Below are positions 32,594-64,000 of a DNA stretch of 64,000 nt, piece after piece; the stretch's first letter is position 1, and every line of letters starts with the position of its first letter. Position numbers and translations under genes: made by a program. The stretch is from NCBI GenBank assembly GCA_963575745.1, contig CAUYUJ010015760.1, positions 956,147-1,020,146 of the forward strand, read 5' to 3'. The stretch is from Prorocentrum cordatum (taxonomy: Eukaryota; Sar; Dinophyceae; Prorocentrales; Prorocentraceae). The notes beneath the pieces were generated by a model. The model had not been told where the DNA came from, did no database searches, and saw only the letters and a program-made list of their open reading frames with translations.

Positions 32594-32642
32594 CGAGCCT
32601 GGCTGGCGGCAGGCCCTCGGGCGCGCGCGCTCGCTAGCGGCC

Positions 32643-33922: not shown

Positions 33923-34128
33923 GGCGGGCAGTTGCATTCTGTATGTAGATATGTTCTCGCCTTGTGGCGCGGCCGCGGTGGAGGCCCAGTGCGGCCCCCG
34001 CGGGGAGAGGCGGCCCTAGGCGGCCCCTCTCGGGAGGGCGTGTCTCGGGTGGCGCTCGGTGCCCCTGGAGGCCCCATCGGTCCCTTTTCCTTACCTCCCC
34101 TTCGCCTTGAAGGCCCCGTCGTTAACTT
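33923..34128 (+). other. 3' UTR of the retrocopied mRNA
   Basis: 206 bp between the probable stop and the point where the 20-bp minisatellite resumes (34129). It ends in GTTAACTT with no poly(A) tail. Confidence 0.5.
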
Positions 34129-40150: not shown

Positions 40151-42300
40151 TGGCGATGCGTGTTTCCCCTCTGCGGCCTTTGGGCCCTCTCTGATCATCG
40201 TCGCTGCGTTCCCGCCGTTGGCGCTGCTGGCCGCCGCCAGCGCTGACGCAAGTGCCAGGGGTTGGGGTGCGGTTGAACCCTCCTCCCTCCTGGGAGCGGG
40301 GGAGGGGTGGATTGGGGAGGGGGGCGGTTTTGCGGGGGAGGGGAGACAGCCCCCCTGGTTCTGATCGACGGCGCCGAGTGTTGGGGGGGGGGCCATCTCC
40401 CATTTTGAAACGCGCCGCCGAATGTTCCTAAGGCAAGCGCCCGTGCAACGCGCTCACTCATTGATTGGTAGGCCGACCCTGTCAGATCAAGGCCCACGCC
40501 CTCTGCATTCCTGTGGCAATGAATGTGGCCCTCGGAAAGGTCTGGTGACCGTGTCCTCTCGCGTGTCGTCTCCAATCAGCCCTGACTCTAACATAATATG
40601 CACCGCCCGGGCCCGTGCGCAAGCGGCCGGGGCGCGCCGCTCAGCACGTGTGCGCCGTGTGGCCGGACTACCCGCCACGGCGTGGCGCGTTCCCATCTGA
40701 CAACCAGGGCTCGGGTTCACGGCGAGCAGCGGCGCCATGGCTCGCGCCCATCCATCCGGCGTCCTCAAAACTCGAGACAAGGTTTGTCGAGGGAAGAAAC
40801 GCGGGGAGCATGATCTCAATTTGTCGCGATAGTTTATCGATGCCGATCCTGGTCACGGTCCATGTCGGCCGTCGCCGATTCACGAGGATGATTCACGGAT
40901 GCGCGCTGACCAAGATCGGTGGTGGCCAAGATCGACACGACGTTTCCACGTTCAGTCTTGATCATGGTCCCCGTCTTTTTCCCTCAAGTTTTTCTCCGTT
41001 TTCAGCTTCTTGGGGCCCTTTTCCGCGCCTCAGGACCGTCAAACAACGACCATGATGAAAAGCTGGTCCCGGGGAAGTGGTCGAGAGGTCGGGGGCCCGT
41101 GTTTCGAAAAAAAGAACGTCGGATGCGTGGGTCGCTAGCGCTCGTGGCGCTAGTCCGGAGCCAGCACTAGAAGCAGGAGTAGGAGGAACGGGAGCTCCAG
41201 GAGGACCAGGGGCAGGCGGAGGAGGGCCGACAACGATGAGGAAGAAATTGGATCCAGAAAAGTGGCCCGCGCGGGGATGCAAGCGCCATTCTGAACGACC
41301 AGGGCAAAGCGTCGATTCCATGATGAGGCCCACGCTGCGGCAGGAACACCACATTGGAAGGATCGAGAGCACGCCGAGCGGAGGAACACACGAGAGATAC
41401 ACAGCTCGGATTAAGCGTGTGCAAAAACCATACGCGGAGGGTGGCGCGCCACTCTCAAGACGTCGTCGGGAGGGAGAGGGGTAGGGGAAAGTTGTGCTCA
41501 CAGCGAGTGGTTCGGAAGGGGGCAGGGGAGGGGGGGGGGGAAAGGGAGGGAGGGGGAAGAGGAGGGCCCTCGTGCAGCCGCTCGGTTCCCGGGCGCGCGC
41601 GCACGACGCGGCCCATGGCGGGCACTCTCGCGTGCGGGGCGGCAGCGGCCGAAGGCCCAGGCAGCGCCGCGCGCTCTGGCGGTGTGGTCGGTGTGGCCGG
41701 GTCGTGGCCCCTGGCGATCGTCAGAGCGTCGCTTGCCTCTCGTGCTCTGGGGTGGCTTCAGTCGGGGGTGTCCGAGAGGGGGCGGAGGACGGGGGGGGGT
41801 GTCATGGCCGGGGAGGTACTGTCGCCTCAGATTTCGTGGCCAGTTCTCCCTCCCCCCTTGTCCGCTCACGCGCCTCGGGTAATGATTTGCGAGCCCTCCT
41901 GTTGGACGCACCCCTCTTGGACACCCTCGATTCAGCGTCAGCGACGACTTTCGCTTAATATTTGAAGTATTAGGTCGGCTTCTAGTGATGTATGCATGTG
42001 GGCTCACGCACAGAAGTTTGGCTTGTCGCGCCGCCGGCTCTGGCCCGCGGCACGCCAAGCACGTCCCAGTATCCAGGCACCAGAGTTGACCCAGGTCTCC
42101 CGTCCCTCGGAGCAGAACGACACGCTAATTTGTTGCAAGGCATAGCGTGTGGGGTAGGGGCCGTCGAGGGGACTCGCTAAGCAAAAGTTTCTGACCGTAG
42201 CCTGCCGGATACCCGGTGCGGCTGAGCATAGCGCGGGACGGGGCAGTGCGGACAGGGGGCTCCCGAAAGACGCGCGCAGAGGCGTGCTCAAATCTTTATG
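40151..42300. other. No supported gene
   Basis: Mixed GC-rich sequence. G-rich low complexity at 40305-40335 and 41510-41560. Open frames exist in all phases but none shows a domain. Confidence 0.35.
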
Positions 42301-46995: not shown

Positions 46996-47300
46996 CTAAT
47001 TCGTGCCCTTCGTGGCCCTGCTGTCCTTCTCTCTCTCGCTCTCGCTTTTGCTCGTCGTCGTCGCCGTCGTCGTCGTCACGTCGTCGACGTTGTCGTCGTC
47101 GTGGTCGGTCCCCTGTCCGTTCCTCTTGGGGTCAGGTTGCCGCCGATCAGCGCTGCCGCTGGCCAGGCCGACGGTCCGCGGCCGCCCCGCCGCTTGCCGG
47201 GGCCCGGCCTGCAGGGAAGAAAAGTATACCCCCCAAAAGAGGTGCGATCGAAGACGAAGAGGGCGGGCATCGAGGGTTTGGGAAATACGCATGCGCAGAG

Positions 47301-48339
47301 ACGCGCTCGTACTACTGAGATTCATGGACACTCCAACTCATTCACATTTAGATTCACTCCCAGACCGTCAATACTCAAGCCCGTGAATTTTCGACAATTC
47401 TTGCGCTTAGACACTCACGGCGGAGAGGTCCACGCTCATTGATGCACATATGAAAAGATCCGCGCAGTGAAACATTTGATGAATTCTCACTGCTGAAGGA
47501 TAATCTAAAGGCTGCCGCCTCTGCCGCCGACCCCAAAGGAGGTTTAGGAGGATTATGGGTAGCAGGTGTACCGGCCGGTGCATCATCGGTCGGAGGGATG
47601 GCAGGGTGAGGATGACGATCATGAAGGGGAGCAGGAGCAGGAGGAGGAGCAGGAGGAGGAGGAGGACGACGACGACGACCATGTCGGGGCGTCGACAGAG
47701 CCTCGGGAAGAGGGGGCGATGCGCGCGACGGGGTGTGGCCCGGGAGGGGGGCTGTTAGAAATATTGCACAAACTTTACTAGACAGCACTTGGCATACTAG
47801 CACGCCTCAATGTTCCATGAATCGGAAGGCCTGGGGTATGGGGGTTGGCCTTTGTTCATTGCAACTTCGTGGCACGTTCCTCAAGCAAGCCACAGAATTT
47901 CTGGAGCGATGTCCCCCCCCTGGTGTTTCCGGCGGGGGGGTGGGGGGGAGTGGTGACAACATCTCACACGCTAATGATTCCAAGGGGTGGGCGGATTCCT
48001 ACTAGAGTCGGGACCTCGTTCTGAAACCGCCGCGCCGTGCGCCTATCCGCTCCTTTCTTCCTCGTCGTCCCGGGATGCCTTTCCCCGGTGGCCCCCGGTG
48101 CCCCTCCGAAACCCGACTTGGTCCGAAACTTTCCAAGGGACAGGTTTTCAGTTCATCCCTGGTTCGCTGACGCGTAGGGATGACTACCCCACCCCTCCGT
48201 CCCTGGCTAATTGACTTTTCAGGCTGTTGGCTAAGCCAAAGCCAAGCCAAATTCTGATCCGGCCGGCTTGGCAGGCCCTGCCCGGCAGCCCCTCGGATCA
48301 AACATCCAGTCAGCCTTCGGGATCAAACAGCGAATTGGC
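47301..48339. other. No supported gene
   Basis: Contains a GGAGGA/GACGAC patch at 47625-47690 and short G/C runs near 47930-47950. No gene is seen. Confidence 0.35.
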
Positions 48340-48520
48340 TAGCCCGAGACATCCTCGCAATTTTATTCACGCGGGCTCCCACCGCCCGAGACATCCCCGC
48401 AACTCCAATTGGCTAGCCCGAGACATCCTCGCAATTTTCGTCAAGCGGGTTCCCGCCGCCCGAGACATCCCCGCAACTCTTCACATCGAGGCCGCCGCCG
48501 CCCGAGACATCTTCGCAACT
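48340..48520 (-). repeat. Five clustered dispersed-motif copies
   Basis: CCCGAGACATCCTCGCAA or close variants occur near 48341, 48388, 48416, 48459 and 48501. They alternate with CGCGGGCTCCCACCG-type spacers and GGCTAGCCCGAG. Confidence 0.8.
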
Positions 48521-49221
48521 AGCTCTACTCGTGCGGGCCCGACGGCGACGACGACGACGACGACGACGGTAACGACGATAAGGACGATAGACGTCTCTTC
48601 TATCCGCCCCCAGACCTCCGATCGTCATGACCTTTCTCGCGGCGGGGGCCTGCCCTCGGGGCTCTTGACTCCTCTTTCCTTGGGACCGGCCTCTCGCCCC
48701 GGGTTAGCTTTTCAGGGCCCCCTGGCCCGAAAGCGGCCCCCGCGGGACGACGTGGCAATTAGCCCACTGAGGGCAAAACAATTTCATTCATTGCGCCTTC
48801 GGTTTGCATTCAGTGAGCTCCTTGCTTTCAGGGCAAAGAGAAAGAAAACAACGCCCATCGTGAGTTTTGTTGCGGCGCCTGGAGGTGTGGGTCTCCGCCC
48901 CCTTGGGGGCTTGCCGTTCGGCCTGCCGCAGAGAAGCGAGGTCCGTGGCCCCGTGCTGACCGATGCCCGCCCCGCTCCGCCCCGCTCCTCCTCCCCCTCA
49001 CTCGTGCTCCCGCTCTCGCCTCCTCCTCTCCTCCTCCCCTCCTCCCCTCGTCCCTCCTCCTTCCTAGGCCCCTTTCCTCCTCCTCCTGCTCCCCTCCCTC
49101 CGCATCCCTCCCTCCCTGTCATCCTCTTCCCTCCTGAGCTAGCGCAAGGGACTGTACACTGTCGCGGTGCTTCTCTTTCTCTTTCCTCCCGCTCGTCCCT
49201 CTCCTCCATTCTTCCTTCCTG
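48521..49221. other. No supported gene; CT-rich tract
   Basis: (GAC)n near 48541-48570 and a strongly pyrimidine-rich tract at 48975-49215 (CTCCTCCCCTCCT). Confidence 0.4.
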
Positions 49222-49243
49222 TCCATAGCCATTTCGGCTCAAG
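49222..49243 (+). other. Decayed DinoSL relic (20 of 22 bases)
   Basis: Ends with GCCATTTCGGCTCAAG; it differs from the consensus only at positions 4 and 14. The following bases (CGAGCC, ten others, AGGCCCTCG) match those after the exact relic at 32572-32593. It may mark a second retrocopied mRNA, though I find no convincing gene downstream. Confidence 0.75.
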
Positions 49244-49859
49244 CGAGCCGCGTTTCGGGAGGCCCTCGCACTCCTGCCCCTCCTCATTCCTCCTCCCCTC
49301 TGCCCCGCCGACTGCGGAGGACTTAGGGCTTTCAGATAGAGTTTCGAACTTCGGGCCTCGAGGATTTGGGTTCGAAGCTTTTTAGGCTCTCGGGGGCCCT
49401 CCTCGTCGCCGCGGCTGGACGCAGCTCGGAAAACTGGTACGTTCGGACCCCGGGAGGGGTCCAGGGGCCTGTTTTGAACGGATTTTGGCCGAGGGGGGGT
49501 GTGGATATCGTGGCCGAGGCCATGAAATCTCCCGGACATCGTGGCCTCCTCTTGTCTCAAGGCGTCCCCTGGCCCCTCCTCCATCGGCCAAGCACGTGCC
49601 TCCGGCCATTATTTGCTAACCCCGCGTTTGGACGCCTACGAGTGGAAAAGAAGGGAAACCCCCAGATCCTCACGACCCGGAGGTTTTCGTCCGTCTTTCA
49701 GCCCCCGGGGGCCTTCGACGGGCCCCGCGACCGTCAATGATGAGGGTGATGATGATGATGATGACGGTGATGATAAAGGCCTCATCTTGAAGGCCTCTTG
49801 AGCGGTGGATTGTACGCCAGGCCACCTGCATACGGCGGCCGCTCAATAGTGAAGCGGCG
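49244..49859. other. Sequence after the second leader relic, no gene recognised
   Basis: Short open frames only. It could be the body of a decayed retrocopy, but composition gives no clear reading frame. (GAT)n-like sequence lies near 49740-49775. Confidence 0.3.
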
Positions 49860-49879
49860 TGTTGCGTGTAAGAGTATGC

Positions 49880-50165
49880 AGGAAGAGGTAGGGGTGGGGG
49901 TAGGAGGAAGTAGGAGGAGGTAGGAGGAAATTGGGAGAGGTAAGTGGAGGTAGGATCAGGTAGGAGGTAGGAGGCGGTAAGAAGAGGTTGGATGAGGTTC
50001 GAAGACACAATGGCGTGGAGGTGGAGGTAGGAGGAGGTAGGGGGAAGGTCGATAGAGTAGGAAAGGGTTCGAGGAAGTAGGAGGTGGTGGGATGAGGCAG
50101 GAGAGGGATGGAGGTGGTGCAGGAGGTGGGATTTGTAAGGAACCATAGGTGGAAGTAAGAGGAAG
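49880..50165 (+). repeat. GGAGGTA minisatellite
   Basis: Purine-rich AGGAGGTAGGAGG repetition just upstream of the Helitron gene. The complement gives Ser/Tyr/Pro-rich frames of no coding value. Confidence 0.85.
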
Positions 50166-50390
50166 GAGGATCAGGAGAACGCAAAAAAGTGGAGGGACAA
50201 CGATGGGAGAAATGGGAGGGCGAAGACGGATGACGACAATGGGGCCAGCCAAGGCAACGAGAGTTCAAGCGGCATGCACCCTTGTTCATTCTGTCACGCC
50301 GCGTGCTTCAGGCTCAAGCCTTGAGCGGCTGCAGCTGGCTCCCCTCCTGTGGGCCTTCCCCGAGGGGCCGCGGGAGCGCGGGGCGCGGCG

Positions 50391-53300
50391 ATGAAGGTTT
50401 TACCGGTTGCGCCTAAAAGCAACCGCGGGCTTTACCGGTTGGGCCATAACCAACCGAGGGTTTTACCGGTTGTACCACAATCAACCGAGGGAGCGCCGGT
50501 GTCCATAAGCCGGTCCCCCGGAAACGGGGTGGTTCGTGGCGTGTGTCAGCAATGGCACGCCCGCGTTCCTGCATGGGCCTTCGGGTCAGCCGGTGTCAGG
50601 CCGGTCCCCCGAGAGGGGTGTGTCGTGGCGGGGTCCTCCGGGGCTTTGCCGCGTCGCTGCGTAAATCCACGACCGAAATGTTCTGCTTTGTGGTGGGCCC
50701 GAGTGACCAGCTCTCGGAATGGGCGGGCTGAAAGGGGGAAGCTATCGCGATTTTGCGGAGACAGGCCCTGGTGGATTGGTCCCATGACGTTTCGTGCACA
50801 CAGTAGACGGGGGAAACTATCGCGAATTTTGTGCGGTGTGGGAGAGACAGGTGACGGAAGGCCGTTACCAGGAAGACCCCGCTGTCTGTCTCCGAAGAGT
50901 AGAAGGGGGAAACTATCGCGTTTTTTTTCGCAGGCGCGTCTTCGGGAGGGTACAAGTAGGAAACTATCGAGATTCGCGTCCCAGGTTCGTCCTCTCGACG
51001 ATAGACGGAGGAAACTATCGCGAATTTGTCCACAGGCGCGTCTTCTAGACAATGGAAGGGGCAGACGATTGCGATTTTGTTCCCAGGTTCGTCCTCTGAA
51101 TGAGAGAAGGTGGAAACTATCGCGGCTCTATGCAGAAACGCGTCCACTGGACGACAACATGAAGAAACTCCCGAGGAGGAGTTGGCCACAGGCGCTTTCT
51201 CCACACGATACAAGGGGGAACATATCGCGAACCGTCTTTTTGGAGCGTGCGCTAGAAGACAGGAGGGGAGAGCAACGGCGAATTTCTGCCCAGACGCGCC
51301 CATCGAGCGACAGACAGGACAGACTAGCACGCTTTGCTTCGCAGACGCGTCGTATGACCGATGGAAGGGGGAAATGCTCGCGGATTCTCTGTAGGTTTGG
51401 TCCAGCCAACGCGTGGCGCGAGGGACGGAAATCGATTCGAAGAATGGTCCGATCGTCAGTGCCAGAGACGGGGGTTCTGCGAAGCTCCGAGGAGGGTCGC
51501 GCGTGGCGTCTGGGAGACGCGGGCAAGGCAGCCGTGAAACGCTGGTGCCCTGCAGGTGACGGGTCGCGACTACAGCGATGGATATCTCGAAGGCGATCGT
51601 GGCGGGATCGGAGAACACGCATAGTCGGCCATGTAGCGGACGTTAGTAGGGAAGACGGAAAAGGAGGAGGAGGAGGAGGAGGAAAAGAAGGAAAAGGAAG
51701 GGCCTGCGGCCGCCAGAGCGCAGCTGCGAGGACGTGCGTTGCTCGGACGCGCGACAGGTGCACGGCTGTGATGAGAGCCCCGAGCGGGAGGAATGGCTCC
51801 GAAAGGCAGTCGGACGACGTCGTGGACGCTTCGTTCTTCGACGTGCTGCGCACAGTCCTTTTCGTTGCACTCGGGCATGCTTCGAATGCGTGTGGGTTGT
51901 GGCGTATCGCGGCGTGGATGTCGGGCCGCGAAGCGCGCCGTGTCGGGGGCGCCCGCAGAGCTCGCGTGCGTCGTGCGCCGGGAATTGGCGTGAACCGGAA
52001 GGTGCACCACCAGGGTCGGGGCAATAGCGAGTGGATTGAGTGCGTTGCGATGTGCGCAAGCAGCGGTGGCGCGCCCGTGGAGACACTAGGTGACGGAATG
52101 CTACGGGTTGCTGTCGCGTGGATGGCGTACGTGACATGCGCACCGACGACGTCTGTGGCGACACTCGCGGCAGACGAAGCAACCGTGGGGTCCTGGGAAA
52201 ATAAGTGCTTGCAAGATGCCGTAGCGCGTATGCAGCGCGGTCGTTGGCGCCGAGAAGCATTGCGATTCTTTTCGAGAGAGTGCCCCAACAATGCATTGTC
52301 GGGTGCGGGCGGAGTGGACCCCGTACCAAAACAGAACGTGGACGCGGTCCAGCGGTGGCTGTGCCAGCAGAAGGCTTTCGCGTGGGTCTACGAGGCAGAA
52401 AAAGTCGCGGATCTTCTGGAGGAGGGAGCCCGTTTGAGGTGGCGACTTGGTGATGCGAATGGCCGCTGCGTCGGGTCTGCCGTTTGGCTGTCCGAAGGAC
52501 ATGTAGTTCGCGTCGCTCATGGGCACGGCGTACTGAGCGGGATGGAAGGTGACCCTGTGCGGGCCCCGTGGCGACGTTCCGCGGCTGGCGCCAGTCGTGG
52601 CGGCAAGAATGGGGCGCTGGCGGCAGGCAATAGCGCGAGCGCGAGTACTGGGCTGCAGCATGACGGTTGCCCTGTCGTCATGGGTGACGGATGCTTTTCC
52701 GAGAGAGTTCGGGCACTCGTTAACCGTCGGTATCGAAAGATGCTCACCAGCGGCCAGGGCGGCGCTTGTGGAATTAATGCGTTGTTCGGCACGGCCAGCC
52801 CAGATGGCCTGCGGCACGCCGATGCGAGAGGTTTCTTGCGACGGACGCTCGGCGAGACTGCAGAAGAAGTGCGCCGAAATTGCCGCAATGCTCGAGCGCT
52901 TGATGAGCTGATGAACTCGGCGTGGAAGCATGTGATCAAGCCGCAGGCGGAACAGCATGCTGGTCTGAACGATCGGAATCTGGGCATGCTGGCGGAAGAA
53001 AAGAGATTGTGGGAGAAAATAAAGGGGAACCGCCATGTCATGAATGCCTGTGTGTGCGCCGTGAAGCAAGAGAGTGAAGCGTTGTCGGTCTTCGAGCAGA
53101 AGCGACGCGAAGTTGCAAGTGCGCTGAGAAACTTATGCGGGAACGACATGAAAGATGTTTTTCTGCGCCCGCTGCTGACTCACATGGGCATTCTTGACGA
53201 CTACGAATGCATAGGCAATGACGGGCAATGGAAGATCGACGTCGCTGGCACAGACACAGAGCTCGGGCAGCATTACCGCCGCGGCATCGTGGAGTACTGC

Positions 53301-56300
53301 GGAATGAACAACGTGGACGCTTTTCTGTCGCACGTAAATAACACGGTGGCCGATCTGCAGGACGCGAACGTAGACAGAGCATTCGGCGCTGGAGTTGGTG
53401 ACTTCGTAGAGTTAGTGAAGGAGGCCCGCGTGCACGCGCCCGTCGTCGACGCCGGGGAGTCTGTCTTGGTGCAAGAGCCATTCGAGGACTTCTTCACTCT
53501 TGTGTACCCTTGTTATTTGGAGGCCGTATGCTCGGATGGGTATTATTTGAGTGATTTAGAGCTGATGTTGGTGTGCGAGTGTGCAGGTATGAACGCGGTA
53601 ATAGCGCGGGAGGTTTGGGAGGAGCGTGGGCTTCGTCGCCCAGCCTTTCAGCTGCACAAGTATGTCTTGCCTGACGCCGACTCGGCGCACATCACTCTTA
53701 TTGGTATAAACGCTGATCTGGGGAGGAGCGCTGTGCGAGGACATTACGAGCGTTTGGAATGCTTGTCGAGAGCTGTGCCCCCGTCGCCAGGTCCGCCGAC
53801 TCCGCGTGCGAGGGCGAAGGAGTTGGAAACCAAGAGCGGACTGCCTGATGAATCTGACATCGTGGAGGGCAACGCTGATATGAACCACGGAGGATTGGGC
53901 GCGCACAAAGAAACGTCGGCGAAGCCTCGTCGCGGCATCGGTCCGATTGCGACGGTCGGTGGCGGTGTCCAGGGAGGAACAAGGGAGGGGCATCGAACGA
54001 ATTTGGGCCAGGCTGGCGGCGGTCAGAGAGCGGGCAAGGAAGGCGGTGACAGCGCGACAGGGACTTTTTGCTCGGCGACGACCGACGCGAGTCGTCCGCA
54101 AGCTTTGCGTGCCCAGTACGTTGCGTGCTCGGGCTCGTCAAGCGTTGGTGAAGCAGCGGCATTGGAGCGCGGCGTGGTCGGCCTGGAGGGACCTTCGTCG
54201 GTGGCGTCGCAGGAGAAGCGTCCTGGGGGGCTGGTCATGCATGGCGTCGCCGCCCGAAAAGGTCGTGCTCCGGCGCTGCACATCCTACCCTGTGATCTCG
54301 TGGCACCAGTGCGGGTCGTCAGGGAGTCGGATATCCGCGCACTGCGTTTGTTGCTGAGTCCGTGCGAAAAGCCGGATGCGTGGGACGTTCCCGGACTGGA
54401 GTTCGTGCCGGGAGAGCTGCGCGCTCATCTCTGGAAAGCGTGGGGCGACACGGAATCGCTCCTGCGAGTCATGCAAGAAACGTGGGTGCGTGCCTGGCAG
54501 GGATGGGAGGAGTCATGGGGCGCTCTGGCAGACGCCCCCGACGCAGAGGATAGGTGCCGCGTCGTGGAAGAACGAACGTGCAAGTTTATGGAATTCTTGA
54601 TGGGGGAAATGGTGTTCGAGGCGAAGACGGACGAGGAACGCGGAGCAGAAATGACACGAGATGGCCGCTGTGTGGGTGCATCGCTTGCACACGGGGTCAA
54701 CGCTAGCCTAGCGGACAGTATATTCCAGCTTGTGTCGAACGCCGGGTGGTGTGGCCATGCCCTGGCGTCCGCTGAGGAGCGCCGCGTCGCATGTGAAGCG
54801 TGCGTGCGGTATTTGCGGAACGTCGAGGATGCGTGGTTGAATCTGGCATCGCACGGTGGAGAGCTGAGCGTTGCCGCTCATGCAGGCGAGATCGTGAGGT
54901 TTGCGTTGGCCCGCCACGGCATGCAAGGAGTAGCGCTGCCAGACCGCGTTATCCTGCGCACGTACTCCCGCTTTGACGGGCACGTTGGGCCACGCGGGGG
55001 GTATGACATGACGTTGTCCCGAGAGGAGATCCAGGGGGGCGGCCCGGTGCTGGGCCAATGGTCACGTGAGGGCGATGTCACCGAGGAGGAAGGGGCAGTA
55101 ATCCTTGAAATATACAACGAGACAGGCGCGGACATCAGCAGTACCTGGTACAGGCCAGTGTGGGCGCGCGCCGAGAACGATTCCCGCGGGAAGTCGCCTT
55201 CCCAGGGGGCAGAAGAACCTTCGGAGGTGGCTGGGCCAGAGACAGGGCAGCACGAGAGCGCAGGATTGCTAACGACGGCGCGGCCGAGTAGTGCAGGGGC
55301 GGACGCCAGTGCGGGCGGTGCGGGCAGGAGCGGAACGGAGCAGAGCACGGGCCAGGTGGTGGAGAAGGACTACACGGAGGCAGCGGGAGCAGCGCACGTG
55401 CACCGCGTCCGCGCCGTCGAGAACGGCCGCGTGTCCGCGGACGGTTGTCGCAGGGCTAGAGAAGAAGGTCTACAGGCGGCCGCGGAGCTTATGAAAGAGC
55501 ACCCCACCGTGCCAGCGGTCTCCGTGCACGGAGCACCGTTGGAAGACGACGCCATCTTCTCACGAGGTGCCGTAGTGCTGCCGCAAGCACACTGCGCTTT
55601 CAGCAGATGCGGGTGGAGAGGGTCCAGCAACGATGAGCTCCAGGAGCATGTGGTAAGCAATCACGCGGGGGATCTACGGGACGTCGCGGAGGCGCTCGCA
55701 TGCAACGAAGAAGACGAGACGAGGCGAAGAGAGGCACAGTACTGGTCCGCGTACAACGAGGCCATTGCATGGAAAGTTCGGACGGGCGCGCCGCTTGCAG
55801 CACTGGCGATCGATCGTCGATGTCTGTTCGAGTATGCGCGGAGTCTGCGCGAGGGTGCCGTCGACTCTCTCGTGTGCATGGTGTGCGCACGGAAGTTTCC
55901 GCACGTGGAAGGGCGCAGAGGGAACCCGATCGAATGGCGCGCGGTGAGTCCCAACGCGGACGGACTGTTCGGGCTGTCAGGCGCGTTCGTGAGGGAGCAT
56001 ATGTCGGTGGACGCGTACGTGGAGCGGTTCGGCAATGTGAGTGCCGTCGGGGAGGGGAGCAGCGGTGTTCATCTCCGAGATCGAATGGAGGAGTTTAATG
56101 ATTGGCAAGTGACGGTTCCATCAGAAGAGGGGCCCGTCCGCGTGCTCTGTTGCCCCGAGGACATGCGGTGCGTCAGTGGCACGTGGCACTCGGAGAACAC
56201 GGCGTGCAGATGTTGTGAAGCCCCGCTGTGCGGGGAGTGTAAGAACGCGATGGTGGGCGTTCGCGGCGAGGCGACGCTGCCCCCCGCGGCGCTGGCCAAT

Positions 56301-59300
56301 GATATGATGGCTTTCTACTCTCCGGAAGAACTGTTCGGTAGCAAGGTGACGATTTTGGAGATGATCTGCGCCTCAGTCTGCATCACATCAATGGTGTGCT
56401 TCACACTGGAGAAACGATACCGGAAGGAGCGGTCTTTTGACATGGAAGTGGGTGCGAACGACGTCCGCATGGCGGCGCGCGGAAACGCGACGTCGTTCCC
56501 GATGCCGTGGACGGACGTTCTAGCGCAGTTGGCTGCTGCTGAAGAAGCTGCCGCGGACGGGCATGCGCCGGCGCTTCCACGCACGGGCGCGGAGCTTGCA
56601 GGCATCGTGTCTGTGATCTTGAAGTCGGGCGGCGACGACGATACTGCTGAAAGCATGTCCACGTTCGTGCACCAGGCTCTGGTGCGCAGGAAGGTGGTCG
56701 TGGATCTCATCGAGGGGGCGAAGGCTCGCGGGCGTCGCGCGTACCGGAACGTGGACATGGATGAGGTCCGGAAAAGAGCCATGGAGCTTCCGGAGGAAGG
56801 CGTGCCACCGGCGATCATGCGCCTGGTACCCCTGGACGACGCGCTTGAGAAGATACAAATGCAGAAGGCGGCGACGCCCGTGCCGAGGCCCGACGGGCTA
56901 CGTGAGGCTGGAGAAATTTTGGAGACCACGAAGGCGAACGCTGTGGTGTGTGAGAAGAGCAGTTTCGACGAGGGAGACATCAATGCGCAGCGGATTGAGG
57001 CCGTGCGGACCTTCGTGCAACGGCTAGATGAGGAGTGCGCGCATGGCGGGGCCGACAGCACGTCGAACTCCAGCGAAGACGAGGAAGGCGGCGGAAAGGC
57101 AGAACGGACAGGGAAACGCGGCCGCGTCCGCGAGGGCACGGCCTCGAGCGCGGACGAAGCGGCGCGAGAAGCAGTGGAGCGCGACATGCTGATGCAGGCC
57201 GGGCGCGAAAGGAAGCGTGTGGATCGGCTCCGCGTGCGCACTGGAAACGTTATGATGGATCAGTTCGAGCCCTGGTATTTCGGCGTCGCGTTCGCGTTTG
57301 TGTTTAAGTATTGCACGGGAATGCCTGACTGCCCAGAGTTCATGAAGCGCCCGCGCCACCGACGGGGGAACGGGGCGCCGCGGGTGGAGCTGCCGCTGTG
57401 GGTGAGGATAATGAGTCGTCGCGTGGAGAGCCAGATGTCCCGCGACTGGCACTTCGGATTCGTGTCGTGGAACCTTGTGTTTCGATCGGCTGTGAACCTG
57501 AGCAGGACGTGGTTCACGTATGTGTCAGCGAACGCATCAGGCGAGGTCGAACAGCTCACTCCCGCGGAAATCGCGGAAGGAGCGAAGCAGATTTATCGCG
57601 CGCTCGACGGGAAGTACGTAGACATCAACAATAGGAAACAGAAAGTAAACGGCGACATGACCAAAGTGCGGCACGTGCCAGGGTTGGGGAAAGCCGCCCA
57701 TAAGCTGCTGACGCACATAGAGCACACTTCGCGGCGACTGTCTGGGACGCAGGAAGCGCGTCGAGTCATGCGATTTGAGACGAACGCGCTGCGAGTGCGG
57801 TACGGCGTCCCCATATTCGTAACCTTCTCGCCCGACGAAGGTCACAATCTGCTCATGGTGAGACTCTCGCGCACTCGCCGGCAGGACCCCGTGCACAAGG
57901 CAGCTGATGATGAAGCGCACTCGCGGCTGGCGGGGAGTCGGGGCTGGCCGCGCGTAGCCCCCGACATGGATGGGCTGCACATGGACCTGCCGATGACCAC
58001 GGGGGAGGCAGGAGTGCCGCCATGGAACGAGCGCAGACGAATTCTTGCGAGAGATCCCATGGCCAGCGTGGACGGCTTCCGTATCCTGGTGGACGCCACG
58101 CTCCGTCACTTGTTCGGCGTGCGGACCTGTCCGAACTGCCCGCGGTGCAACGAGGCGGAGAATGGGGCACCTTGCCAGGACCTGTTCGGGAGTAATGCTC
58201 AGCCCGGGGGGGGCGCGTTCGGGCGCGTTGATGCCTACTACGTGTCGATCGAAGCGCAGAAGTCCACGGGGTCTCTCCACGCGCACTGCCAGGTATTCAT
58301 CCAGTGCCTGCACCAGCACACACCGCTGGACGAGGTATTCGAAATCGTCCGCGACGAGGTGGAAGGCCGTGGAAGGAAGATCGTTGAGGATTATTTGAAG
58401 TATAAGAGTCGCGTGTGCCGCCAGGTTTATTCGGAGCAGATGACACCGGAGGAGATTAATGGCAAGTTGGATGAGGCAGAGAAGTCGTGGCCAGAGTTCA
58501 AGAACGAGGGCGGTCTCATTTGCAGGCCCGCGTTTCAGTGTCGCACACTGGACCCAGAAGCAACGGAGAAGGAGGCAGCATACGACGCTGTGGCATGGGA
58601 GAAAGCGTACCTGGACGAAGACGTGCAGTACCTGCAGGAGAGGAAGCAGAACCACGTGCATTTGAAGAACGAAGAGACTGGTGAGCGAGTACCCCTGCCG
58701 GCGTGCCGCCGGAAGGACAACCCGAAGCTGTGTAAGGCGGACTTTCCGCGGACGTCGCAGCTCATTGACCGCGCCATCGTCGTGTGTCCAGGGCAGGCGG
58801 CAGCGTTGGACATGCCAAAGGCAGGGCGACGGAATCGGACGGGAAGCCTGCACGGGCCGATGAATCACGCGAGTCTGAACGGCACGCATCCATGCATGTT
58901 GTCCGCGCAACGGTTCAATTCGGACGTGCAATTGCCGTATCGATTCCCCATCACAGAGGTTTGTTGTACGTGCGGGAAAGCGTGCGATAAGAAGCTCAAC
59001 GACGCAGCGATCATCAAGGTCGCGCAGATGGCACAGGACGCACAGGCAGGGTACGCCTGCGACTACTGCACGAAACGGCAACCCATGGCTTTTCACGAAG
59101 TGAAGGAGTGCTGCAAGGGGGTAGAGAAGCTTGGCAGGCAGCTGCAGGGCGAGAATTTGAATCGGATCGGGAAGAGAGTAGCGAATCGCATCATGAGCGA
59201 CGCGTACGGCAAAGGCATCGTGCGGGGGCAAGTGGAGTGTGCGAACCTGAGAGCGTTCGCGAGGGAGGACGACGTCACTGCGGCGGAAGCACTGAAGTCG

Positions 59301-62300
59301 TGCCAGACCACAGCCTTTTATGGACGCGAGTACGTGGACTTGGTCGAGCGCCTGGCAGACCGCGCGGCAGGCGGGCGGAAAGCGCAGTTTGCTGAAGTGG
59401 ACATGCGGCAGAGGAGACGCAGAAAGGTGACCTTCCGAGACGTGGCCATGTTGTATGGACTGCGACCGAACGAGCCCGACCTGTGGCACTTGTCGCCGTA
59501 CGAGTTCGCGACGTTCTGGACGCCGGTGTTGGCGTCGTTCCCCACGAGACTCGGGGATGCGGACCATCCTCGGCATCACGCTGTCTTGACGCAGAAGGGC
59601 AAGGAAAAGGTGCGCGAGAATTGTAAGAACCCGAGATTGGAGCAGGACCTGGAACTTGGGGAGGACTACATGGTGAAGGAAGGAGGAGGCGTGGATTGGG
59701 TGCCGTACCCAGAGACAGACGGGTGCGCCCACCTTCGTCACACGTGGGTGCTCAAGCGGAACAAGAGACCCAAGGCACCAACCTTTTTCGGAGCGCCCGT
59801 GCCACGCGGACGTCCTGGAGAAGCGGAGCGATCTGCGCGCATTGTGATGACGTACTTCCACCCGTGGACGTTGAGGCCTGACGCGGCCGACGCGCACGTC
59901 GTGTTCGCAGGGAGCCTGCGCGGCGACGCGCCGACGTGGGACGCGGCCATGGTGGCGTGGCTGGACGGCGGGGTGCAGACGAAGGAAGCCGCGCGGTACG
60001 TGGGCAACTTCCTGAGTGTGTACCGCGTCCGGCCACGAGACACTGAAGAAGCGGGGGACGGGACCGACGAAGACGTGAGCGACGAGGAGTTGGACGTGGG
60101 CTTCGATCAGCTCGACGATGCGCTGAAGTCCCGCGTGGGCGGGAAGAGGCGCAAGGACGGCGACGGAGACAGCAGCAGCGAGGAGGACGACGCAGACCCT
60201 GGGCAGGGAGCCGGAGGCGTCTCCCACTACGAAAATTCGAAAGGGGGCATGAGTGTCGCGCAACAGGTGTGGGGGCTCCGCGATGGCGAAACGCCGTTGA
60301 GCGAGATTCCGGGTGCATGGCCCGCAGAGGAGCCCTGCGACGTTGAGCAGGTACTCAGGGAGGCGCGCAAATCTCGGAACAAGGAGCAATCCATGGCGGA
60401 CCGACTGGCGGAGGCTGACGGCGCAGTTATCGTCGCTGGCCAGGCCGCAACATCGGAGGACGTTGCCGCGTGGCTCAGGGACCTAGAGTTCCGGGTGGAC
60501 AAGCAGACGGGACGGCGTGTTGTGAACGCGAAGCAGTTCGAGATGGTGAAGAAGGTGGCGAATCGAGTAATGCGCGAGATAGACGGCGAGGGAAGTGAGG
60601 ACGGCAGCATGGGTGATCCGCTGCAGTGGTGCATGCACGGGGGCCCTGGGACCGGCAAGTCGCACGTGCTTCGCATTATTCGTCGTGAGTTGTTCGAGAA
60701 GGTGATGAAATGGACTATCGGAGTGCACTTCCAGATAACCGCCTTGCAGGCCGTCATGGCTCAGCTGCTGGGAGGCGACACCATTCACCATGCGTGTGGC
60801 ATTCCGGCTATCAAGCGGGGGGAAGAGAAGGGGGGGGAGGACGTGAAGTTGCAGTACGAGGCTGCGAAGCGGCTGCTCCAGTGGAGGTGGCTCTTTATCG
60901 ATGAGATAAGCATGGTGAGCGCTAGACTGCTAGCAGAAGTGGACGCGAAACTTCGCGGGGTCATTCGGGACGTGGGCACGACGAAACTCGGCGACGATGG
61001 CGTTCCACGCCCGTTCGGCGGCCTCAACGTCGTGCTGAGTGGTGACTTCTGGCAGCTGGCCCCCCCTGACGGAGGCTTTCTCGCCGACGTCCCCACGGAG
61101 CGGATTTCGGCTGCGCGCAAGTACACATCGCTGCCACCCGTGTTGCACGGTCAATCGCTACTGTGGGGCGGGGCCGAGTGTGGGATTCAGGGCGTGACAG
61201 AGCTGGAAGAGTGCGAGCGATGCGACGACGCCTGGTTGAAGGAGGTGCAGGAGGAATTCCGAAGAGGCTCGCTGTCGGCGGATGCGCACGCATTCTTGCA
61301 CGGCCGGCATACGTCCGTTCCTGGGAGCTGGCTGGGGGGGGACGTCTGCTGCGGGAATCGGGCGTGTCGGGAACTGTGCAGTGGCGGAAGGGACGCAGCG
61401 TCGTCAAGCGCGGGGCAACGACGGAAACGCCCCGTGACGCCGAAAGATATCCGCGAGCAGGAGTGCAAGGTGTGCAGAACGGAACGCGCACGCCGCAAGC
61501 TCGTGGTGGATGGACCCGACGACCCGCGTCTGCAGTCAGACAAGTTCCTCGTGGCGCCGGGTGTGTTCCCAAACAACGACGTGAAGTACGAGGCGAACAA
61601 GCTCCGTGCGGCCCAGTACGCACGGAAGCACAGGATGCCGATGGTGTACGTCCCTGCGCGAGATACGCCCACGCCAGAGGCGCTGCGGGAGCGGCCGGAT
61701 CTGCCGCAGCAGAAGATGGCATGGCTCCAACGCCACGACAAGGAGAGCGGGGACTTGTACGGTTTCTTGCCCATCGCTGAAGGCATGCCCGTCGCTCTGA
61801 CCGATCATATCGATCGAAGCGAGGACAAAAACCTGCTGCGCGGTCGCGTGGGCCGGGTGCAATCCTGGGTATGCGACGGGGACGCCGTCAATGATCGAGT
61901 CACGCGCGGCGGGGAGACCATATTGAAGAAGACTCCGAAAGTGATCTTCGTGTTGTTCGACGAAGGCGAAGACGGGAACGGCGGCAGGAAGCCATGCCAG
62001 TGGACGATCGAGGGATTGAAGACGCCCGGGTTGTACCCCGTGATTCCGCAGAAGAAGGATTGGTTCGTGGACAAGGGCCGTCCGCATCCGCGACTGAAGG
62101 TCAAAAGACGGCAGTTCCCGCTGGCTCCGGCCTTCGGAGTGACGGCCCATGCGGCGCAGGGGCAGACGTTCAAGCAAGGTGTCATAGTGGACCTGAGCAT
62201 CGGTGGGGGCACGTCACCTCTGTCGAGCTACGTGGCACTGACGCGGGTGCAACGCCGCGAGGACATGCTGATCTTTCGCCCTTTCGATATTGCGCCGTAT

Positions 62301-63494
62301 CAGAAGAAGGGCGAACGGAAGGGCCCGGACTTACTACTGCGCACGTTGCGCGGAGAAGAGTTGGACTGGGAGGCGATAGAGCGGGAGTTCATGCCGTCTG
62401 GCAGGTGCGCGGTCTGCGGGTGCACGAAGTACAAGAACATGTGCCCAACGGTCGGGCAGTGGAGCCGCGCAGATGGGCTCCGCGTGTGCAGCGTGTGCCT
62501 GGAAGATAAGAAGAGGTCCGGCACGCCGTGGCAATGCATGGAGTGTGGTCTATGGAAGTGCCAGGAGGCTTTCCACGCGTCACAGCACCACCCATCGAAG
62601 TTGACCACGCGACGTTGCGTAGACTGCCCCGAGAGGCGAAAGTGTTATGTGTGCGAGAAGAGCAAGTACGAGGAAGGATTCGGGGCGACTCAGTGGGACA
62701 AGGCAGGGAATGCCCGATGCAAAGGAGGAATGTGCCTGGACTGCGAAGAGGCGAAGAAGCATCTGAAGTGTTCGCGCTGCGGCGAGCAGAAGTTACTAGA
62801 TCAATTTGCCAAAGCGGAAACTGTTATCAACGAGGAACCCACATGCAAGGCGTGTAAGAGGTTGCAGAGAGAGGAGGAGAAGGCCCGTGCCGAAGAGGCA
62901 AAAGAGCGCGTGTGTTCCAAGTGCGGAACCCCAAAAAGGAGAGCCGAGTTTTCAGAGCACATGTTGGTTAACGCGCCGGTAGCATCGATGCAATGTAGGG
63001 AATGCGTAAACGCTGCAGCAGCAGGGCGGGACAAGGCGGCGAGGAAGGACATTAAAACTTGCGTGGTGTGCAGGGTGGGGCAGCGGCAAGAGTTTTTTTC
63101 AGAATGGATGCGGGGCGGCGTGGCTGATCTGCATCGTAAGTGCAAGCAGTGCGTCGCTGCAGGGAGGAAGGAAGAGAGAACTTGTGTAGTGTGCGAGAAG
63201 GCGCAACAGAAAACATGTTATTCCGATTGGATGTGGGACGGCGTGGCAAATCTTCACCGCAAGTGCAAGCGCTGCATCGGCGGTGCGAAGATGCAGCGCG
63301 GAAAGTGGACATGCGTAGAATGCAAAGGCGCTTTCGGGAAAGAGGAGTACAGCAGCTGGTTGGCCGAGCGGACTTCGCAGAAGGCGAATGGAAAGCAAAG
63401 GTGCAACGTGTGCTGTGCTGGCCAAGAGCGCAAAAGGAAAGAAGTCGCTGAGCGGAGCCACGCGTCGGTGACAAAAGTGCGTAAGACTGAATAG
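50391..63494 (+). CDS. Giant Helitron RepHel polyprotein with protease-like and zinc modules
   Basis: One frame of 4,367 codons from the first ATG (50391). The frame is open 14 codons further to a GTG at 50349, and residue numbers here count from that GTG. In order: 17-residue Arg-rich repeats (130-355); cysteine-protease-like GQGGACGINALFG with C807 and GHYERL with H1132; a C2H2-like finger (C1749, C1754, H1767, H1772); CxxC pairs near 1843 and 1955; DUF6570-like LPPAALANDMM; a Helitron-like N domain (about 2304-2510, including FVTFSPDEGHN); C-rich TCPNCPRC; HUH motif GSLHAHCQVF (H2644, H2646). The helicase follows with Walker A GGPGTGKS (K3437), Walker B FIDEIS (D3518, E3519), LSGDFWQLAPP, TAHAAQGQT and SYVALTRVQRR, then eight Cys4 modules (4018-4361). 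It would nick, unwind and rejoin element DNA. No stop or frameshift is seen. The true start may be further downstream. Confidence 0.9.
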   Translation: MKVLPVAPKSNRGLYRLGHNQPRVLPVVPQSTEGAPVSISRSPGNGVVRGVCQQWHARVPAWAFGSAGVRPVPREGCVVAGSSGALPRRCVNPRPKCSALWWARVTSSRNGRAERGKLSRFCGDRPWWIGPMTFRAHSRRGKLSRILCGVGETGDGRPLPGRPRCLSPKSRRGKLSRFFSQARLREGTSRKLSRFASQVRPLDDRRRKLSRICPQARLLDNGRGRRLRFCSQVRPLNERRWKLSRLYAETRPLDDNMKKLPRRSWPQALSPHDTRGNISRTVFLERALEDRRGEQRRISAQTRPSSDRQDRLARFASQTRRMTDGRGKCSRILCRFGPANAWREGRKSIRRMVRSSVPETGVLRSSEEGRAWRLGDAGKAAVKRWCPAGDGSRLQRWISRRRSWRDRRTRIVGHVADVSREDGKGGGGGGGKEGKGRACGRQSAAARTCVARTRDRCTAVMRAPSGRNGSERQSDDVVDASFFDVLRTVLFVALGHASNACGLWRIAAWMSGREARRVGGARRARVRRAPGIGVNRKVHHQGRGNSEWIECVAMCASSGGAPVETLGDGMLRVAVAWMAYVTCAPTTSVATLAADEATVGSWENKCLQDAVARMQRGRWRREALRFFSRECPNNALSGAGGVDPVPKQNVDAVQRWLCQQKAFAWVYEAEKVADLLEEGARLRWRLGDANGRCVGSAVWLSEGHVVRVAHGHGVLSGMEGDPVRAPWRRSAAGASRGGKNGALAAGNSASASTGLQHDGCPVVMGDGCFSERVRALVNRRYRKMLTSGQGGACGINALFGTASPDGLRHADARGFLRRTLGETAEEVRRNCRNARALDELMNSAWKHVIKPQAEQHAGLNDRNLGMLAEEKRLWEKIKGNRHVMNACVCAVKQESEALSVFEQKRREVASALRNLCGNDMKDVFLRPLLTHMGILDDYECIGNDGQWKIDVAGTDTELGQHYRRGIVEYCGMNNVDAFLSHVNNTVADLQDANVDRAFGAGVGDFVELVKEARVHAPVVDAGESVLVQEPFEDFFTLVYPCYLEAVCSDGYYLSDLELMLVCECAGMNAVIAREVWEERGLRRPAFQLHKYVLPDADSAHITLIGINADLGRSAVRGHYERLECLSRAVPPSPGPPTPRARAKELETKSGLPDESDIVEGNADMNHGGLGAHKETSAKPRRGIGPIATVGGGVQGGTREGHRTNLGQAGGGQRAGKEGGDSATGTFCSATTDASRPQALRAQYVACSGSSSVGEAAALERGVVGLEGPSSVASQEKRPGGLVMHGVAARKGRAPALHILPCDLVAPVRVVRESDIRALRLLLSPCEKPDAWDVPGLEFVPGELRAHLWKAWGDTESLLRVMQETWVRAWQGWEESWGALADAPDAEDRCRVVEERTCKFMEFLMGEMVFEAKTDEERGAEMTRDGRCVGASLAHGVNASLADSIFQLVSNAGWCGHALASAEERRVACEACVRYLRNVEDAWLNLASHGGELSVAAHAGEIVRFALARHGMQGVALPDRVILRTYSRFDGHVGPRGGYDMTLSREEIQGGGPVLGQWSREGDVTEEEGAVILEIYNETGADISSTWYRPVWARAENDSRGKSPSQGAEEPSEVAGPETGQHESAGLLTTARPSSAGADASAGGAGRSGTEQSTGQVVEKDYTEAAGAAHVHRVRAVENGRVSADGCRRAREEGLQAAAELMKEHPTVPAVSVHGAPLEDDAIFSRGAVVLPQAHCAFSRCGWRGSSNDELQEHVVSNHAGDLRDVAEALACNEEDETRRREAQYWSAYNEAIAWKVRTGAPLAALAIDRRCLFEYARSLREGAVDSLVCMVCARKFPHVEGRRGNPIEWRAVSPNADGLFGLSGAFVREHMSVDAYVERFGNVSAVGEGSSGVHLRDRMEEFNDWQVTVPSEEGPVRVLCCPEDMRCVSGTWHSENTACRCCEAPLCGECKNAMVGVRGEATLPPAALANDMMAFYSPEELFGSKVTILEMICASVCITSMVCFTLEKRYRKERSFDMEVGANDVRMAARGNATSFPMPWTDVLAQLAAAEEAAADGHAPALPRTGAELAGIVSVILKSGGDDDTAESMSTFVHQALVRRKVVVDLIEGAKARGRRAYRNVDMDEVRKRAMELPEEGVPPAIMRLVPLDDALEKIQMQKAATPVPRPDGLREAGEILETTKANAVVCEKSSFDEGDINAQRIEAVRTFVQRLDEECAHGGADSTSNSSEDEEGGGKAERTGKRGRVREGTASSADEAAREAVERDMLMQAGRERKRVDRLRVRTGNVMMDQFEPWYFGVAFAFVFKYCTGMPDCPEFMKRPRHRRGNGAPRVELPLWVRIMSRRVESQMSRDWHFGFVSWNLVFRSAVNLSRTWFTYVSANASGEVEQLTPAEIAEGAKQIYRALDGKYVDINNRKQKVNGDMTKVRHVPGLGKAAHKLLTHIEHTSRRLSGTQEARRVMRFETNALRVRYGVPIFVTFSPDEGHNLLMVRLSRTRRQDPVHKAADDEAHSRLAGSRGWPRVAPDMDGLHMDLPMTTGEAGVPPWNERRRILARDPMASVDGFRILVDATLRHLFGVRTCPNCPRCNEAENGAPCQDLFGSNAQPGGGAFGRVDAYYVSIEAQKSTGSLHAHCQVFIQCLHQHTPLDEVFEIVRDEVEGRGRKIVEDYLKYKSRVCRQVYSEQMTPEEINGKLDEAEKSWPEFKNEGGLICRPAFQCRTLDPEATEKEAAYDAVAWEKAYLDEDVQYLQERKQNHVHLKNEETGERVPLPACRRKDNPKLCKADFPRTSQLIDRAIVVCPGQAAALDMPKAGRRNRTGSLHGPMNHASLNGTHPCMLSAQRFNSDVQLPYRFPITEVCCTCGKACDKKLNDAAIIKVAQMAQDAQAGYACDYCTKRQPMAFHEVKECCKGVEKLGRQLQGENLNRIGKRVANRIMSDAYGKGIVRGQVECANLRAFAREDDVTAAEALKSCQTTAFYGREYVDLVERLADRAAGGRKAQFAEVDMRQRRRRKVTFRDVAMLYGLRPNEPDLWHLSPYEFATFWTPVLASFPTRLGDADHPRHHAVLTQKGKEKVRENCKNPRLEQDLELGEDYMVKEGGGVDWVPYPETDGCAHLRHTWVLKRNKRPKAPTFFGAPVPRGRPGEAERSARIVMTYFHPWTLRPDAADAHVVFAGSLRGDAPTWDAAMVAWLDGGVQTKEAARYVGNFLSVYRVRPRDTEEAGDGTDEDVSDEELDVGFDQLDDALKSRVGGKRRKDGDGDSSSEEDDADPGQGAGGVSHYENSKGGMSVAQQVWGLRDGETPLSEIPGAWPAEEPCDVEQVLREARKSRNKEQSMADRLAEADGAVIVAGQAATSEDVAAWLRDLEFRVDKQTGRRVVNAKQFEMVKKVANRVMREIDGEGSEDGSMGDPLQWCMHGGPGTGKSHVLRIIRRELFEKVMKWTIGVHFQITALQAVMAQLLGGDTIHHACGIPAIKRGEEKGGEDVKLQYEAAKRLLQWRWLFIDEISMVSARLLAEVDAKLRGVIRDVGTTKLGDDGVPRPFGGLNVVLSGDFWQLAPPDGGFLADVPTERISAARKYTSLPPVLHGQSLLWGGAECGIQGVTELEECERCDDAWLKEVQEEFRRGSLSADAHAFLHGRHTSVPGSWLGGDVCCGNRACRELCSGGRDAASSSAGQRRKRPVTPKDIREQECKVCRTERARRKLVVDGPDDPRLQSDKFLVAPGVFPNNDVKYEANKLRAAQYARKHRMPMVYVPARDTPTPEALRERPDLPQQKMAWLQRHDKESGDLYGFLPIAEGMPVALTDHIDRSEDKNLLRGRVGRVQSWVCDGDAVNDRVTRGGETILKKTPKVIFVLFDEGEDGNGGRKPCQWTIEGLKTPGLYPVIPQKKDWFVDKGRPHPRLKVKRRQFPLAPAFGVTAHAAQGQTFKQGVIVDLSIGGGTSPLSSYVALTRVQRREDMLIFRPFDIAPYQKKGERKGPDLLLRTLRGEELDWEAIEREFMPSGRCAVCGCTKYKNMCPTVGQWSRADGLRVCSVCLEDKKRSGTPWQCMECGLWKCQEAFHASQHHPSKLTTRRCVDCPERRKCYVCEKSKYEEGFGATQWDKAGNARCKGGMCLDCEEAKKHLKCSRCGEQKLLDQFAKAETVINEEPTCKACKRLQREEEKARAEEAKERVCSKCGTPKRRAEFSEHMLVNAPVASMQCRECVNAAAAGRDKAARKDIKTCVVCRVGQRQEFFSEWMRGGVADLHRKCKQCVAAGRKEERTCVVCEKAQQKTCYSDWMWDGVANLHRKCKRCIGGAKMQRGKWTCVECKGAFGKEEYSSWLAERTSQKANGKQRCNVCCAGQERKRKEVAERSHASVTKVRKTE
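50399..50487 (+). repeat. Three tandem hairpins
   Basis: TTTACCGGTTG starts at 50399, 50431 and 50462. In each, CGGTTG pairs with a downstream CAACCG (50404-50409 with 50420-50425; 50436-50441 with 50451-50456; 50467-50472 with 50482-50487). The inner pair is C-G in the first and G-C in the second, a compensatory change. They lie inside the first codons of the open frame. Confidence 0.75.
50738..51410 (+). repeat. 51-bp tandem repeat (17 codons), about 11-12 copies
   Basis: GGAAACTATCGCGAATTT-like starts recur. Spacing is 75 then 96 bp at first, then 51 bp from 50912 on (50963, 51014, 51065, 51116), becoming more degenerate toward 51400. Each unit also carries CAGGCGCGTCTTC or CAGGTTCGTCCTC. 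All spacings are multiples of three, and the protein reads RRKLSRICPQARLLD-like units. Confidence 0.85.
62398..63435 (+). repeat. Eight tandem Cys4 zinc-module coding repeats
   Basis: Within the Helitron gene, about 38-residue modules of the form CxxC-x(3)-K/R-x(4)-F-x(10-20)-CxxC recur. Examples are LKCSRCGEQKLLDQFAK, RVCSKCGTPKRRAEFSE, KTCVVCRVGQRQEFFSEW and RTCVVCEKAQQKTCYSDW. Modules 6 and 7 are the most alike (both with LHRKCKQC/LHRKCKRC), pointing to recent duplication. The pattern resembles Stc1-type fingers. Confidence 0.75.
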
Positions 63495-63557
63495 CTGTTG
63501 CCACGTGGGCCAGGTGCGGGCCAGGTGGGGTGGGTGGGGGGGGGGGGGGAAGGGGGA
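63495..63557. other. 3' flank of the Helitron gene
   Basis: 63 bp with GGGCCAGGTGCGGGCCAGGT and a poly-G run. It is the first, partial unit of the satellite that follows. I see no clear terminator or poly(A) signal. Confidence 0.4.
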
Positions 63558-64000
63558 TATCGGTCGATTTTGGGCGAGAAATCGCGGGGTGGGGAGTCCC
63601 AAGAACAGAGCCCAGAGGGCTGGCGGTGTCGGGGCCAGGTGGGGGCCAGGTGGTGTGTATCGGTCGATTTTGGGCGAGAAATCGTGGGGTGGGGGGTCCC
63701 AAGAACAGAGCCCAGAGGCCTGGGGGTGTCGGGGCCAGGTGAGGGCTAGGTACGGGGTATCGGTCGGTTTTGGGAGAGAAATTGCGGAGTGGGGGGACCG
63801 AAGAACAGAGCCCAGAGGCATGGGGGTGTCGGGGCTAGGTGGGGGCTAGGTGGGGGGGGGGGGTATCGGTCGATTTTAGGCGAGAAATCGTGGGGTGGGG
63901 GGTCCCAAGAACAGAGCCCAGAGGCATTGGGGTGTCGGGGCCAGGTGGGGGTCAGGTGGAAGGTATCGGTCGATTTTGGGCGAGAAATCGTACGGTGGGG
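63558..64000 (+). repeat. 100-bp satellite with internal hairpin, reaches window edge
   Basis: TATCGGTCGATTTT starts at 63558, 63658, 63758, 63864 and 63964 (spacing 100, 100, 106, 100). In most units CGATTT and AAATCG can pair across eight bases (CGATTTTGGGCGAGAAATCG). Each unit also has CCCAAGAACAGAGCCCAGAG and GGGCCAGGTGGGGG. Confidence 0.95.

Follow-up and report, generated by a model that had tools for sequence, protein, structure and literature searches.

The forward strand of the window, the 64,000-nt stretch of Prorocentrum cordatum DNA analysed here, carries a long unbroken frame whose product (hereafter P0001) is a Helitron RepHel protein. Our reading is that the frame is the RepHel gene of a rolling-circle element of Helitron type, whose cassette is exchangeable and probably deubiquitinating; we give this a probability of roughly 60%. 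The cassette would occupy a slot between an N-terminal module and a family-wide domain, D2, and comparison of the predicted proteins shows that the content of this slot differs between close relatives.

An Intact Open Frame

The frame runs from stop to stop across positions 50325-63494 (+; 4,389 codons), and translation from the ATG at 50391 would give 4,367 residues, in line with the preliminary description of an intact frame of about 4,370. The same interval holds 151 and 110 stops in the other forward frames and 50-74 in the reverse frames, so neither chance nor base composition accounts for the opening. Over 3,908 codons, 3.9% of single-base changes create a stop, and a neutral copy of that length would be broken with 95% probability at 0.29-0.14% divergence, given an assumed indel/substitution ratio of 0.05-0.15. 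Since neutral drift of only 0.14-0.29% would break it, the frame is, on this calculation, either recent or under selection, as had been proposed from its integrity. Predicted relatives that differ by 13-20% in the core have long frames too.

The true start of the protein may be Met461 (51771, +), giving 3,907 aa, rather than the ATG at 50391; in the comparison with P0003, similarity between P0001 and its relatives starts near residue 465. Codon bias, scored as a log-likelihood ratio after training on residues 1700-4200, is weak in residues 1-778 (-0.12 to -0.01 per codon) and reaches +0.11 to +0.23 per codon in the core, which is also the training set. The weak bias was dropped as proof against translation of residues 1-460, because it is just as weak in the conserved N-module (-0.011 per codon over residues 579-778). 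Over the first 1,446 nt this is the only open forward frame (0 stops against 14 and 13), which favours translation of residues 1-460; base composition puts the chance of such an opening at ~2e-8, an underestimate, since the stretch holds repeats. A repeat recurs nine times in this stop-free N-terminal stretch (50784-51384, +), mostly at intervals of 51 nt (17 codons), and may be translated.

The RepHel Core and Its Relatives

P0001 is a Helitron RepHel. One unbroken frame encodes a Helitron_like_N domain, the two tyrosines and the HUH motif and PIF1-type helicase that had first been described. The Helitron_like_N (Rep) domain covers residues 2433-2633 (57687-58289, +; Pfam 34.8 bits, cut-off 28.9). 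The HUH histidines, H2630 and H2632 by motif (58278-58286, +), are those earlier numbered H2644 and H2646 in a count that began at GTG 50349 and not at ATG 50391. The presumed two-tyrosine motif of Rep, Y2888/Y2892 (59052-59066, +), was recognised by the YxxxY pattern and would correspond to the Helraiser tyrosines; both histidines and both tyrosines are invariant in an alignment of 13 rows. The helicase (60633-62297, +) consists of a Pfam PIF1 match at residues 3415-3558 (56.3 bits), in which Walker A begins at residue 3417, and a C-terminal helicase part at residues 3899-3969, and AAA_19 scores above its Pfam cut-off (26.0 bits).

The DUF6570-like, C2H2-like and Cys4 segments of the preliminary description were also recovered. 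DUF6570 spans residues 1962-2125 (56274-56765, +; Pfam 40.8 bits, cut-off 24.3), a C2H2 zinc-finger motif recognised by pattern only lies at residues 1735-1758 (55593-55664, +), and eight Cys4 modules, from a count of 16 CxxC after residue 4000, occupy residues 4006-4341 (62406-63413, +). Stc1, for which an HMM search had been suggested, scores 22.2 in this Cys4 region of P0001, under its Pfam cut-off of 24.8. C-terminal CxxC motifs number 15 in P0002, 22 in P0003 and 16 in P0001, and a count over 11 proteins gave between 7 and 22; the array therefore grows and shrinks among relatives.

A search with residues 2350-3950 returned 37 homologues, of which 34 (P0002-P0035) show 33-95% identity across the matched part; for the other three (P0036-P0038) the figure is 22-29%. 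Their predicted lengths are 2,410-4,020 aa, lengths below 2,402 aa being outside the query's reach, and they have the same core as P0001, with DUF6570 in all 14 relatives scanned against Pfam. The view that this copy is unusually complex is thus not upheld. Nor is P0001 without a similar RepHel protein in dinoflagellates, an outcome that had been named as fatal to the first interpretation: close relatives exist, and two homologue rows bear the name Prorocentrum cordatum, no other species being given for any homologue. P0014 and P0022 carry “Skav” gene names, presumably a Symbiodiniaceae label; their loci, of 9,867 and 9,267 nt, measure exactly 3 x (aa+1), so both genes are intronless. A core tree, made by a quick method with SH-aLRT only and with P0030, P0036, P0037 and P0038 excluded, groups P0001 with P0002, P0035 (filling 41% of the columns) and P0003 (support 100). 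Pattern-matching candidates were found in viral contigs and in bacterial/archaeal genomes, none of them encoding a relative. One of the 14 scanned relatives, P0017, has an extra CoiA_N-type domain (PF25164; E 1.6e-8), perhaps another captured module.

Two Protease-Like Domains

The segment first described as a single protease-like domain is two domains, D1 and D2. Protease-like motifs are indeed present; they are divided between D2, which is common to the family and has lost its presumed catalytic residues in P0001, and D1, which fills the slot.

D2 (residues 1343-1596; 54417-55178, +) is OTU-like by motif and matches a family-wide profile. Its motifs across the family are N-x-C-L-x-D and G-Y-H-F-D-A-L, which we take to resemble OTU Cys and His boxes. 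The presumed catalytic columns of P0001 hold Ser1439 (54705) and Trp1586 (55146), i.e., Cys and His are absent. Among the 21 of 32 profile matches that cover both columns (eleven short matches were excluded), 16 have Cys as well as His and five have neither, the replacements being S/W in P0001, S/C in P0002 and P0030, S/S in P0003 and S/G in P0034. P0034, which fills 47% of the columns of the core tree, groups there with P0004. Since P0004 has a whole D2, the residue loss in P0034 looks separate from that in the P0001 clade. P0004 combines its whole D2 with a partial second D2-like stretch.

D1 (residues 755-1137; 52653-53801, +) has presumed catalytic residues Cys793 (52767) and His1118 (53742), and its coding bias is good (0.09-0.15). 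A D1-only search in which 8,000 candidates were scored found at least 13 proteins. P0039, P0043 and P0045 (489-591 aa), without a Pfam domain above cut-off, look like free-standing D1 genes. In a midpoint-rooted D1 tree, P0001, P0042, P0047 and P0050 come together (94/94, below the tool's star), three of them filling less than half of the columns, within a set that includes free-standing genes. The Cys motif is found in eight of 15 sequences, the His motif in 11 and both in five; the remainder end or diverge before the site, and the rows that extend as far as these positions all keep Cys and His. A word search for D1 in other RepHels found none among 1,267 candidates, and a later profile search gave the distant RepHel P0010, which keeps both motifs. 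P0042, which EukProt lists as a Pyramimonas sp. transcript, shares 78% identity with D1 over residues 920-1143; the label reflects either contamination or transfer.

An HMM search for OTU had been proposed as a check, and it did not favour that class. Pfam OTU stays below cut-off in D1 (two of 14 rows matching, best E 0.081) and does not appear among the families given for 25 of the 32 D2 carriers. Comparison by hhalign of D1 and D2 with OTU, using the OTU-bearing relative P0033, gave nothing significant, and PDB searches gave unrelated weak matches only. The idea that D1 is a duplicate of D2 is likewise unsupported (hhalign probability 0.2). We regard D1 as a putative orphan Cys/His domain whose assignment to OTU finds no support in these sequence tests.

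Probable Exchange at the Slot

The slot is bounded upstream by the N-module (residues 465-749; 51783-52637, +), which is common to P0003 (41%), partly P0035 (50%), P0002 (47%) and P0047. P0002, P0003, P0030 and P0035 have the same RepHel core as P0001, with matched blocks 65-95% identical, and differ from it in the slot occupant. Outside the slot, P0002 is 74% identical to P0001 in D2, 88% in DUF6570, 89% in Rep and 88% in the helicase; its slot holds ~340 residues without a blastp match to P0001. This occupant is putatively OTU-like, by motif only, and found no match as OTU in Pfam or PDB. P0003 has 24 residues between the flanks and no slot domain. In P0035 the slot holds a USP (Pfam UCH 38.7 bits, cut-off 23.9), with an N-module (50%) on one side and a 3′ flank (47%) on the other. 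The slot of P0030 holds a USP as well, which shares 54% identity with the P0035 domain. The 3′ flank of P0030 is 83% (380 aa) and 93% (333 aa) identical to P0001; P0030 is an annotated gene model with missing pieces, its 5′ side showing no N-module, so that the 3′ flank alone is matched. In P0047, D1 is joined to the N-module (68% over residues 620-915). P0020 and P0034 carry more distant USPs, and the USP Cys and His boxes, read by eye, are kept in P0030, P0035, P0034 and P0020. Exchange at the slot is thus supported, at the level of predicted proteins, by five rows of different kinds, the sharpest of which, P0030, is also the least secure.

Slot occupancy can be set against the state of D2. 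A USP or D1 is present in three of the five rows that have lost the D2 Cys/His and in none of the 16 that have kept them (Fisher 0.0075), and if the P0002 motif is counted, four of the five D2-lost rows have a slot occupant (Fisher 0.0008); both tests treat rows as independent of kinship, and the USP profile was built from the USP rows themselves. Two rows misfit a simple replacement. P0003 lacks both a live D2 and a slot domain, which means that the slot cassette can be dispensed with. In P0004 a live D2 is accompanied by a partial second one, so gain at the slot need not come after loss of D2.

Relation to Known Helitrons

P0001 resembles the canonical animal Helitron RepHel (Helraiser/Helibat; PMC4778049, in part) in its HUH motif and two tyrosines, its SF1B PIF1-type helicase, its zinc-finger motifs and its single frame, and a profile of its helicase matches Helraiser chain 7lcc with E 2.9e-5 over 27 residues. 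Unlike the 1,496-residue Helraiser chain, the protein here is of 3,907-4,367 aa, and unlike Helraiser/Helibat it adds an N-terminal slot domain, D2, DUF6570 and a C-terminal Cys4 array. In these systems two tyrosines carry out nicking and transfer, with strand displacement and circle formation, and genes next to the element can be captured (PMC6213432 and PMC4778049, both in part).

OTU proteases occur in Helentrons (PMC4067079, in part), and P0001 is like a Helentron in being a Rep/helicase element with an OTU-type cysteine protease, in P0001 by motif only. Unlike in Helentrons, the protease-like domains of P0001 lie within one and the same frame. Assignment to Helentrons was rejected, as the eight Pfam families that match P0001 with E up to 10 include no AP endonuclease, which in Helentrons is C-terminal.

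The closest parallel to the cassette is found in fish Helitrons, whose frames hold one or two cysteine deubiquitinase domains of VTD/OTU type, some inactive (PMC9741609, in part). According to the same source, zebrafish Helitrons carry active deubiquitinases, suggested to protect proteins needed in transposition, and deubiquitinase classes have been proposed to replace one another in Helitrons. Unlike in fish, the occupants here are a USP, the orphan D1 and an OTU-like motif, with no VTD identified, and exchange is between close relatives with shared flanks. The literature searched, judged by titles, abstract openings and parts of PMC9741609 and PMC4067079, mentions neither a USP or D1-type domain in a Helitron nor close-relative exchange, and by title or abstract opening no study of such a protein appeared in the literature on Helitrons in dinoflagellates, Prorocentrum or Symbiodinium. 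Helitron deubiquitinases are already known; a USP or D1-type domain and its exchange between close relatives would be apparently new.

Element Ends and Surroundings

One simple scan for Helitron ends found no hairpin plus CTRR in 63401-64000 (+) or 47001-50391 (-). The window ends 506 nt past the stop codon, inside a 100-nt tandem repeat (63552-64000, +) that starts 57 nt past the stop codon and runs off the window, and the 3′ end of the element may fall outside. Upstream by 1.1 kb lies a relict spliced-leader sequence (49222-49243, +; two mismatches in 22), within a 48-nt stretch (49222-49268, +) that is 83% identical to a copy at 32572 and reaches beyond the leader. No evidence was found for a direct tie between this relict and the Helitron gene.

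The preliminary description held that all other element genes in the window are broken. This could not be confirmed: 28 of 90 ORFs (180+ codons, positions 1-50000) were scanned and gave no Pfam domain above cut-off. Elsewhere in the window, 32572-34129 (+) begins with the 22-nt dinoflagellate spliced leader without a mismatch (0 in 100 shuffles). A satellite of ~20-nt units (32188-32571) stops exactly at this leader and resumes at 34130; the enclosed ORF (32643-34019) has no Pfam domain and the 3′ junction no poly(A). The segment looks like a spliced-leader-headed retrogene inserted in the satellite. Two long overlapping open frames, of 822 and 772 codons, lie at 37959-40427 (-), a strongly skewed region (GC skew 0.54, AT skew -0.60); the one that was scanned has no Pfam domain.

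Proposed Mechanism and Alternatives

By analogy with studied Helitrons, the two Rep tyrosines would nick element and target, the helicase would then peel one strand away, and the Cys4 and C2H2 fingers would grip DNA. D1, a putative active OTU-like cysteine protease, would strip ubiquitin (or a relative) off the transposase or host factors, and transposition would thereby be protected. The older family protease, D2, would have lost its catalytic residues in the P0001 lineage, and other proteases would have been inserted upstream of it through module exchange or gene capture. A more specific version is that in dinoflagellate Helitrons a true deubiquitinase cassette, in a fixed place of the transposase, has repeatedly been replaced by unrelated proteases (USP, OTU-like and a new D1 family) after the active site of the neighbouring ancestral protease had decayed in two lineages or more (the P0001 clade and P0034); this we advance tentatively, as possible yet doubtful.

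Much of the slot evidence could also be read as old polymorphism, in which the several proteases of an ancestor were lost differently from copy to copy, or were shuffled by unequal recombination, with no new acquisition. The D1 relative in the distant RepHel P0010, the USPs of the distant P0020 and P0034 and the two D2-like stretches of P0004 would all fit. We nevertheless consider this unlikely, as no row was found with more than one of the three occupants (D1, USP, P0002-type domain), and the flanks of P0001 and P0030 are too similar for old sorting without exchange. It is rather unlikely, too, that P0001 is a plain Helitron RepHel whose slot is a fast-evolving spacer without shared function, with D1, the USP and the P0002 segment as chance gene captures: two of the three occupant types (USP and D1) are cysteine-protease-like with Cys and His kept, and D2, which adjoins the slot, carries the same kind of motif. 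Such captures would agree with the empty slot of P0003, with the free-standing D1 genes P0039, P0043 and P0045, and with the frequent capture of host genes by Helitrons (PMC4778049, in part).

A domesticated host gene that keeps the RepHel frame and is no longer mobile would explain an intact frame near which no Helitron ends were found. The many long, divergent relatives resemble a mobile family, however, all Rep and helicase catalytic motifs are kept, and with the window stopping so soon past the stop codon the 3′ end could fall outside it; we judge domestication very improbable. An assembly or annotation artefact is scarcely credible, as it would not hold 3,900 codons open with conserved motifs, and the two relatives P0014 and P0022 are intronless.

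On the preferred reading, a Helitron-type RepHel gene with an exchangeable cassette, P0001 provides a named, long and apparently intact Helitron gene for dinoflagellates. Relatives with 83-93% identical flanks and a different protease would represent the same transposase with different cassettes, and on them the proposal that any deubiquitinase class will do could be put to a direct test. Repeated replacement of the cassette, if true, would be the mark left by an ongoing conflict with a host that controls transposition through ubiquitin.
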